Part shown: positions 39,990 to 43,392 of the stretch, piece by piece
How the letters are laid out: each line of letters starts with the position of its first letter
Numbering within the stretch: position 1 is the stretch's first letter
Assembly (NCBI GenBank): GCA_030748775.1
Contig: JASMLH010000008.1
Location: 1 to 49,894 of the forward strand
Source: Candidatus Thalassarchaeaceae archaeon
GTDB taxonomy: Archaea; Thermoplasmatota; Poseidoniia; Poseidoniales; Thalassarchaeaceae
DNA: 49,894 bases
Direction: 5' to 3'
Position numbers and translations under genes: made by a program
Notes under the pieces: generated by a model
Seen by the model: the letters and a program-made list of their open reading frames with translations, nothing else
The model's database searches: none
Told to the model about the DNA's origin: nothing

Positions 39990-41075
39990 ATGGCAACTGG
40001 TAGTTTGGAGTTCTATGCTTCATTCGTTCGCAGAGTGGATGGGCCTTGCTCCATTCTCTGCATTGAAGATGACGTCATGGTTGCTGGTTCGCGGAACGGA
40101 GAACTGTCATCTTGGGATATTAGCAGCGGTTCGAAGAAATGGAGTCTGGAGTTCGAAGGGCATTGCTCTAGTGCAGACATAAATGATGGATTGATCTTCC
40201 TTTCCGAGTCCGATAACCTGCACTGCATAAAAATCGAGGACGGGGGGTTGCTCTGGAGTACTGAGTTGGAGGGCTCCAGCGATATGGTCAAATTCTCCGA
40301 AGAAGGGATATGGGCAACTTCTTCGGTTTACAGCCTAGAGATTCAAGACTACTACGATAGTGCAGTGTGGCTTTTTGACCATCAAGGTGGTTTAATGGGA
40401 AAATGGCCAATTGAAGGGAGGGCTTGGTCATTGGATTCTGTATCAGGTGTCGCCGTGGTTGGGCTTAGCAGACCGAAATGCGGCTATTGTACTGTTACTC
40501 TAGAAGAGGGCGTTAAGTACCATTCTCTAAACATCTCAAGTCCAGTAACTGTTGGAGTGTCAAGCCAGAAAGGGACGCTTATGGGTCATAGCGATGGTAG
40601 CTTGAGTCATGTCACCTTAGATGGTTCTACATCTACGAGTATTGGAAAGGGATCAGTTTCCGCATTGACCATGGATGAAGGCTGGGTAATTGGGATGGAT
40701 TCTGGAGAACTGGTGTCCGGGGACAATTTGGGTTCCTGGAAAGTAGAATTGGGAGGCGTGGTCGATCTGGTGAAATTTGGTCCTTCTCCCGATGAGGATT
40801 CATGTGTTTGGACTTCCTCTTGGTCCGATTCCTGCAGATTATCTCTTCTAGAAATCCATAGTGGTCAGGAAAAAATGGAAATTCATCATGACTATAGGAT
40901 ATCCGTGGGTTCTTCGGAGCTAGGATTTATTGCCCTGGGTGATTTTAGTGGAGGGGTTTTTCTCCTTGAAGACGGTGTAATTGGACGAAGGAAAGAGCAA
41001 TTTGATGAGGATTTGGACCCAGATAAAAAGAGTGAACTGCTGAGAAGAAAGATTCGCGAGCTCAGGACGAAGTGA
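39990..41075 (+). CDS. WD40/PQQ-like beta-propeller protein
   Basis: Repeated blade-like VAGSRNGELSSWDISSGSKKWSLEFEGHCSSADINDGLIFLSESDNLHCIKIEDGGLLWSTELEG. Confidence 0.75.
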   Translation: MATGSLEFYASFVRRVDGPCSILCIEDDVMVAGSRNGELSSWDISSGSKKWSLEFEGHCSSADINDGLIFLSESDNLHCIKIEDGGLLWSTELEGSSDMVKFSEEGIWATSSVYSLEIQDYYDSAVWLFDHQGGLMGKWPIEGRAWSLDSVSGVAVVGLSRPKCGYCTVTLEEGVKYHSLNISSPVTVGVSSQKGTLMGHSDGSLSHVTLDGSTSTSIGKGSVSALTMDEGWVIGMDSGELVSGDNLGSWKVELGGVVDLVKFGPSPDEDSCVWTSSWSDSCRLSLLEIHSGQEKMEIHHDYRISVGSSELGFIALGDFSGGVFLLEDGVIGRRKEQFDEDLDPDKKSELLRRKIRELRTK

Positions 41076-41327
41076 TTTGCAGTGGAAATTTACTGTTTCG
41101 GACCCCCTTTTCCAGTGGACTGCGCCTAATTTCGGGAAAGGTTTATGTGCCGGCCACGACCCTGGTTTCTTTGCCGCTCCGGGGGAGTGGTGTGAGGGCG
41201 CTTCGGCGCGACTCGCGGGCCACAAAACCGAGCCCCAAAGCTGGGGCGGTAGAACCGAGATTCGAAAGGAGATCGGGGAAGAGCTGGAACGTCTGTGGAC
41301 GGGAAGGCAGCGGCGACGAAATCGGAG

Positions 41328-41349
41328 GAACCGGACGCAAGGAAGGGGA
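41328..41349 (+). repeat. Copy 1 of perfect 22-nt direct repeat
   Basis: gaaccggacgcaaggaagggga; second copy at 41436-41457. Confidence 0.9.
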
Positions 41350-41435
41350 GAGCGAGAAAGAAGCTGCAGAGATACACGCGCGTAGGGGGATGAGAATGAA
41401 CCTGGGTCGCGGAAAAGAGGGAAACGAAGCGGAGA

Positions 41436-41457
41436 GAACCGGACGCAAGGAAGGGGA
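41436..41457 (+). repeat. Copy 2 of perfect 22-nt direct repeat
   Basis: gaaccggacgcaaggaagggga; spacing 108 nt start-to-start. Confidence 0.9.
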
Positions 41458-41790
41458 AGAAAACTGAGGGAAACTCTTGGGCAACAAGGGCGGGGAGACC
41501 CGTGGAGGAGCTCGTATCGGATCGTGGAAGAAGAATGTCGAGAGGCAGGAACGGAAGCGGAGACGGCAAAAGAGAGAGAGATCGATCAAGAGTCGGAAAA
41601 TGACAAAGGGAGAGCATGAAGTCCTGGAGTCTTCTACCCGGGGAAACCCGGGCCTTCGGGCCCGGGGGACACCCGGACCCTGCGGAGTTAACAGGGGGGG
41701 ATGCTCCCCCATGTGCAGAACCCCCTGTTGCTCCCACCTGTTTACTTCGGCCCTTATTTCATACAACCGTTAGCGGAGCTTGTTCCTTAT

Positions 41791-43392
41791 TCAAGAGCTA
41801 GGTCCTATCATTTTCTCAGGCCTGACCCATTCATCGAATTGCTCTTCCGTGAGCATCTCCATCTGAATCGCGCTCTGCCTAAGAGTCAGGCCATTCTCAT
41901 GGGCGTTCTTCGCAATCTTGGCCGCATTGTCATATCCTATGTGGGTGTTTAGAGCTGTGACTAGCATTAGCGAATTCTCAAGGTGTTCAGATATCTTGTC
42001 CTCGTTGGCCTCCAGGCCAGATACGCACTTCTCTGAGAACGAGATGCAGGTATCAGAAATGAGCCTGATGCTGTGCAGGAAGTTGTGAATCATCAGGGGC
42101 TTGAACACATTTAGTTCGAAATTTCCCTGGCTACCGCCGATAGAAACCGCCGTATGGTTGCCAATTACCTGGCAACAAACCATTGTCATTGCTTCTGACT
42201 GAGTTGGGTTTACCTTGCCTGGCATAATGCTGGATCCTGGCTCGTTTGCAGGTAGAGCCAATTCTCCGAAACCGCATCGCGGACCTGAGCCTAGCCATCT
42301 GATGTCATTGGCTATCTTCATCAGAGAGACTGCGAGAGTGTTGAGTGCGCCGGAAGCAGAAACGATTGCATCGTGAGCTGCCAATTGAGCGAACTTGTTC
42401 TCTGCACTTACAAATGGGAGGTCCGTCTTTTCGGAGATTTTCTCAGCGACCAAATTTGCGAACTCCGGGTGCGTATTCAGACCCGTTCCAACAGCTGTAC
42501 CACCCAAAGCCAATTCGAATAGATCTACAAGAGAGGATTGGATTCTAATCAAGTCTGCATCTAGCATTGAGACGTATGCTCCGAATTCCTGCTCCAGTGT
42601 GAGTGGGACTGCATCCATCAGATGTGTTCGCCCGATTTTGACAATACCGGAGAACTCTTCTGACTTTGCAGAAAGTTGTGAACGTAATTTAGCAATTGCT
42701 GGAATTAGGGTGTGTTGAACTTCCTCTGCAGCAGCGATGTGCATAGCAGTAGGGAATGTATCATTGCTGGACTGGGCCCTGTTCACATGGTCATTCGGGT
42801 GAATTGGCGACTTGCTTCCCAGTTTCCCCCCTGTCATCTCAATTGCCCGGTTGGCAATGACCTCGTTAGCATTCATATTCGTCTGTGTACCAGAACCAGT
42901 CTGCCAAATCCTGAGAGGGAAATGTTCGTCCAAAGAACCAGAAATAACCTCATTGCAAGCCTTGGATATCAAATTCCCGATCTCCTTATCGAGTCCTCCG
43001 AGTTCCACGTTCGTCTCTGCTGCGGCTTGCTTCAGAATCCCAAAAGCACGGATTACAGACCTGGGCATCCTATCCTCGCCAATGTCGAAGTTGACAAGTG
43101 ACCTAGCCGTCTGTGCGCCAAAGTACCTATCGGCAGGGACCTCTATCTCCCCCATAGTGTCCTTCTCGATCCTGAATTTTCCTTTCGTTGACTTAGGTTT
43201 CCTAGGCTCACTAGTAATGGAGTCAGTCCGTGTAGGATCGCTACCGGAGAGCGAGCTCTCAATCATCCTTGTGATGGTTGCAGACCTTCCGCTCTGCCTA
43301 CCCTTTCCAACTCTGGCGTCCAATCTCTTGGCCAGATTCTCTGGTATGCTGACTGTGATTATCCTACGGTCGCCCGCACGGTGCTTTGCCAT
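41791..43392 (-). CDS. fumC: Fumarate hydratase class II with N-terminal ribbon-helix-helix domain
   Basis: FumC body from ~residue 72: [31 protein letters not shown]...[18 protein letters not shown]-term [40 protein letters not shown] is CopG/RHH-like. Confidence 0.95.

Follow-up and report, generated by a model that had tools for sequence, protein, structure and literature searches.

What is encoded in a 715 bp gap between two convergent archaeal genes? In the window (the whole 49,894-nucleotide stretch of Candidatus Thalassarchaeaceae DNA that was analyzed), this gap extends from the stop codon of a beta-propeller ORF to the end of fumC:

39990-41075, + strand: beta-propeller ORF, 361 aa, PQQ_2/BamB-like; upstream neighbor of the RNA described below.
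41791-43392, - strand: fumC (fumarase); convergent downstream neighbor of the RNA.

A first-pass annotation had described the gap as non-coding, with ~76% purine on the + strand of 41281-41580, and had proposed that it held an undescribed large structured RNA or, alternatively, a very divergent copy of an essential RNA. The descriptive part held: the gap is 715 bp long with no kept reading frame, and the purine content of 41281-41580 is 75.7%. The purine peak of the whole window (76.7%, any 300-nt stretch) falls in the same gap, against a window-wide mean of 51% (SD 6%). Our analysis indicates that the gap very likely contains an independent gene for a large structured non-coding RNA, probably dating from the ancestor of Poseidoniales. 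As a separate observation on the downstream neighbor, the fumarase has ~70 extra N-terminal residues with a weak match to a ribbon-helix-helix DNA-binding domain (PF01402, E 0.006, below cut-off), and the alignment of many MGIIa fumarases begins only at residue ~62-74.

One rival explanation is a protein gene on either strand. Open frames of up to 207 aa, mostly on the minus strand, are present in the gap; however, long minus-strand frames are expected here because a purine-rich + strand gives the other strand few stop codons. In addition, the open frame varies among relatives and is broken in several of them (e.g., L007, L016, L023 and L024), the gap frames had no Pfam match, and sequence change follows base pairs. 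A protein gene can be considered practically ruled out.

Folding energy was of little help in recognizing the RNA. The z-score was -1.6 for the + strand and 0.0 for the - strand, i.e., the fold is not unusually stable, and folding energy and hairpins alone are insufficient to reveal the RNA. The first-pass argument that UUCG and GNRA tetraloops indicate selection at the RNA level was thus too strong, although its conclusion was right. The case beyond chance is comparative, and consists of sequence identity within the genus, compensatory changes, and a promoter whose position does not vary across 56 loci. BLASTN searches with the gap matched most genomes of the same genus at 80-95% identity and other genera of the family at 60-74%, whereas the neighboring beta-propeller protein is only 25-37% identical in these other genera. 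The RNA defined by these comparisons is as follows:

41170-41738, + strand: structured RNA, ~570 nt (540-850 nt in relatives), with homologs in 29 loci and 114 consensus pairs, 64 of them with compensatory changes.

The 5′ end was predicted from the spacing to the TATA element, and the 3′ end was placed at the last conserved block, TGCTCCCACC. In the consensus derived from the 29-sequence alignment, the 64 pairs with changes on both sides compared with 17-24 in a control in which partners were slid by 1-3 columns. Standard pairs occupied 96.1% of cells (31-46% when slid), double-change cells numbered 204 (21-40 when slid), and none of 500 shuffles reached any observed value. The slid control is somewhat flattering, since the consensus structure came from the same alignment that was used for the pair counts. 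An unsupervised covariation scan of all column pairs in 56 sequences returned 14 pairs of the predicted structure among its top 50, and added an enclosing helix (41311-41316 with 41361-41366) in which pairs 41314-41363 (CG/UA/GC/UG) and 41311-41366 covary with 100% pairing.

The overall architecture has two hairpins at its 5′ end and a double stem at its 3′ terminus, together with a long-range stem and a purine-rich domain of multiple hairpins:

41173-41191, + strand: 5′ hairpin GCCGCUCC-ggg-GGAGUGGU (helix 1); 100% of cells paired in 29 sequences, including a C-G to U-A change; recognizable in MGIIa.
41192-41216, + strand: second hairpin with a UUCG cap (helix 2; placed at 41189-41225 in the first-pass annotation); both-side changes in 6 of 9 pairs.
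41217-41221, + strand: 5′ half of the long-range stem, GGGCC, partner 41675-41680 (helix 3); 97.9% paired, almost invariant.
41232-41247, + strand: hairpin GCCCC-aaagct-GGGGC (helix 5); compensatory changes in 4 of 6 pairs.
41281-41580, + strand: purine-rich multi-hairpin domain; 75.7% purine; helices 8-20 covary.
41328-41349, + strand: hairpin module YY-GGA-S-GNRA-S-GAA-RR, copy 1 of a 22-nt exact repeat.
41436-41457, + strand: hairpin module, copy 2, identical over all 22 nt to copy 1.
41647-41666, + strand: hairpin CCCGGGCC-UUCG-GGCCCGGG; both-arm changes seen in the alignment in L004 (C..G to U..A) and in L017/L018.
41675-41680, + strand: 3′ half of the long-range stem, GGaCCC (helix 3).
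41682-41738, + strand: 3′ terminal domain, a GGAGU/GCUCC outer stem plus a 9-bp AACAGGGGG/CCCCCUGUU hairpin (helices 26-27); compensatory changes in 7 of 8 inner pairs.

All hairpins named in the first-pass annotation were present, and most were backed by covariation in relatives. The long-range stem is consistent with the data rather than proven, because its near-invariance leaves it weakly tested. The 3′ terminal domain is also kept in the sister family (MGIIa) and served as the basis of covariance models R1 and R3. A 5′/3′ pseudoknot (GGGGGAG with CUCCCCC) was also considered and was dropped, as it is broken in divergent homologs in the alignment.

The hairpin module accounts for part of the unusual composition. 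We found 85 copies in the 56 RNAs compared with 2.9 in shuffles, with two copies here and 0-7 among relatives. The closing pair was C-G in 62 copies, G-C in 22 and another pair in one, and the outer pairs change together. By analogy, the opposed GGA and GAA would be arranged as three sheared G-A pairs in succession. These repeated hairpins, in which a GGA/GAA internal loop is combined with a GNRA tetraloop, explain part of the purine skew. Between species, the number of modules grows and shrinks, with a maximum of seven in MGIIb copies such as that of L030; the remainder of the RNA is stable. With regard to orientation, MGIIa copies have 9-14 TTCG on the RNA strand and 1-3 on the other; TTCG loops with a 4-bp stem occur 4-8 times per RNA on the + strand and never on the other. 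The + strand is identified as the RNA strand because these UUCG-capped stems are confined to it in MGIIa.

Upstream of the first hairpin, two conserved elements were identified:

41136-41147, + strand: BRE/TATA-type archaeal promoter GAAAGGTTTATG, with unvarying spacing to the first hairpin across 56 loci of both families.
41080-41119, + strand: upstream control element, CAGTGGAAA (41080-41088), a ~20 nt spacer and TTTCCAGTGGA (41109-41119), conserved in both families.

The TATA-like sequence reported in the first pass was confirmed as GGTTTATG at 41140-41147. The promoter consensus is GAAA-N-RTTTAT(R), with fixed spacing to the first hairpin in the 56 loci, and transcription is predicted from the sequence alone to start at ~41166-41172. 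When 16 genomes of the genus were searched for the pattern CAGTGGAAA-N18-30-TTTCC, 14 occurrences were found, 13 of which were the promoter of this RNA, and the remaining one resembles a chance match in coding sequence. The CAGTGGAAA/TTTCC pair was absent from the RNase P and SRP genes. Judged from sequence alone, the upstream element is likely a transcription-factor site, and the RNA appears to have a dedicated, regulated promoter. In a separate case, an MGIIa genome in which the RNA was not found, CAGTGGAAA..TTTCC precedes an apparent ferredoxin-like gene (L264:1500-1540, reverse orientation; G039 C41), which might be another target of the same regulator. Comparison gives good support to an element that is conserved, folded as RNA from the + strand, equipped with its own conserved promoter and not protein-coding.

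In both families, the beta-propeller gene and fumC flank the RNA where flanks are readable. In MGIIa, the same place was found in two genera with both flanks read, and genus g22 was read on the beta-propeller side only. This arrangement raises the possibility of a cis element, either a 3′ UTR or terminator belonging to the beta-propeller gene or an antisense or 3′ regulator of fumC, and the position between both gene ends in most genomes speaks for it. However, the RNA has its own constant promoter, and its size and degree of structure go far beyond those of a terminator. Two species retain the beta-propeller side, but the gene that comes after the RNA is a different one and fumC is on another contig; dependence on fumC was rejected on this basis. 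Conversely, an empty site is seen in MGIIa: in L121 and L126 (G052, G044) the ends of the beta-propeller gene and fumC are ~10-25 bp apart with no RNA between them. Abutting flanking genes that leave no room for it occur in members of g12 and g15. A cis element is very unlikely.

Another rival is an element acting at the DNA level, e.g., a replication origin or a partition site, for which the purine skew and the short direct repeats could be cited. Against it, the compensatory changes, the strand bias of tetraloops and the promoter point to action as RNA, the repeat copy number varies from 0 to 7, and a two-copy internal repeat is not an origin-box array. Judged on these features of the locus alone, we consider this explanation highly improbable as well.

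We further checked the occurrence of the RNA among archaea. Covariance model R1 (3′ domain) matched 100 of 340 genomes of the class, all of them Ca. Thalassarchaeaceae (MGIIb) and nearly all with a single match. Model R3, built on divergent copies, added MGIIb genera g2, g3 and g5 and MGIIa genera g14, g16 and g22. With BLASTN and covariance models combined, the RNA is present in all 11 genera of Ca. Thalassarchaeaceae, in one copy per genome in nearly all MGIIb matches, and in three genera of the sister family. No homolog was detected by two models in MGIIa genera g11, g12, g13, g15 and g17, but on MGIIa model R2 performs poorly (E 0.1-0.3 for the true copies in g14), and divergence in these genera is therefore not fully excluded. 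The RNA was not found outside Poseidoniales; the best matches beyond the order (E 0.002-0.02) were treated as chance because similarly weak MGIIa matches turned out to fall within protein genes (a hisS-like ORF at E 0.017 and another at E 0.057), although the E 0.002 match itself was not inspected. In viral contigs, the exact 5′ pattern of the RNA had no match. The RNA likely goes back to the ancestor of Poseidoniales. It is not essential throughout the order, since several MGIIa genera seem to lack it, and this absence suggests loss or, less simply, transfer into the other genera. In genus g3 (L236, L237 and L238), most genomes with a match contained the 3′ domain twice, ~300-330 nt apart, possibly a tandem duplication of part of the RNA.

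Could this be a known RNA after all? None of the 4227 families of Rfam 15 matched the window at the gathering threshold, and in a relaxed scan the best matches were eukaryotic families far below cut-off, at chance level. Eight divergent homologs searched at E<=1 also gave no match, and ARAGORN detected no tRNA or tmRNA in the gap. A far-diverged version of RNase P, SRP or another known essential RNA, the alternative offered in the first pass, would fit the size and the G+C-rich hairpins, and a first look at the 58%-complete genome of this organism gave no RNase P above cut-off. However, among 60 relatives, RNase P was found above cut-off in 48 and SRP in 52, at other loci and including carriers of this RNA; the RNase P matches of relatives score ~230 bits, and the SRP RNA of this genome lies on contig C22 (115.8 bits). 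Neither archaeal RNase P (RF00373) nor archaeal SRP (RF01857) had a covariance-model match in the window. With genuine copies elsewhere and no Rfam match here, RNase P and SRP were ruled out, and the known essential-RNA alternative as a whole is as good as excluded. The proposal of an undescribed large structured RNA is supported, because no Rfam family matches and conservation across the order extends to sequence, structure, promoter and position.

The word "undescribed" needs one caveat. A mdRNA-Seq study of the Red Sea in 2016 reported Tan1 (Thalassoarchaea ncRNA 1), an abundant 229-nt unknown RNA (PMC5069720). It ranked 5th in RNA-Seq and had a complex structure, its five homologs were 75-79% identical, and next to RNase P and SRP it was the one unknown RNA that the study named. 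Tan1 could be this RNA or a part of it that resulted from processing or incomplete coverage, and either case would be compatible with our main reading. The two share the archaeal lineage (homologs here are in Ca. Thalassarchaeaceae and Ca. Thalassarchaeum, MGIIb), a complex predicted structure and an unknown function, and lineage together with abundance makes Tan1 a plausible fragment. Against this, the reported 229 nt differs from the ~570 nt conserved unit, whose true transcript ends are inferred, and no Rfam family matches this locus. The identity is neither established nor ruled out, and we lean slightly against it. No paper on ncRNA in Poseidoniales turned up in a literature search. Should Tan1 prove to belong to this RNA, the full extent, promoter, covariation and order-wide distribution of the RNA would still appear to be new.

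The function of this independent RNA gene can only be approached by inference. In the mechanism we propose, the RNA would be transcribed at a substantial, regulated level, as inferred from sequence alone, would act in trans as a folded particle, and would behave like a housekeeping-style independent RNA gene. The most likely role is a scaffold for a ribonucleoprotein, a guess that we would neither bet on nor against, with protein binding only inferred. An RNA-only oligomer is a less likely second choice by analogy with the families discussed below, with oligomerization also inferred; a regulatory or guide/sponge RNA is about as likely as the oligomer, and a ribozyme is less likely still, catalysis being likewise an inference. 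A bolder reading, with chances that we see as evenly balanced, is an undescribed large RNA family, ancestral to the order, which forms a new ribonucleoprotein or RNA-only particle. If true, it would join a very small set of large non-ribosomal archaeal RNAs, in an order of very abundant, uncultured planktonic ocean archaea (Marine Group II). With predicted boundaries, a promoter, a covarying structure and homologs at hand, the RNA lends itself to a search of existing metatranscriptomes and to in vitro study without culture.

Among known systems, archaeal RNase P RNA (RF00373) is likewise structured, single-copy and under an independent promoter, and archaeal SRP RNA (RF01857) is structured and single-copy; both differ from this RNA in locus. 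OLE, ROOL and GOLLD, for which RNA-only assemblies have been shown, resemble it as intergenic RNAs of 500-850 nt with an elaborate conserved structure and a poorly understood function (PMC12286853). They have no sequence or Rfam-model match to it (if these families are included in Rfam 15), and they are bacterial or phage RNAs, whereas this one is archaeal, and its exact 5′ pattern is without a match in viral contigs. Large structured non-ribosomal RNAs are rare, and each has tended to reveal unusual biology. The well-studied unexplained examples are bacterial or phage-borne; in contrast, the RNA described here is archaeal and occurs in every genus of one family.
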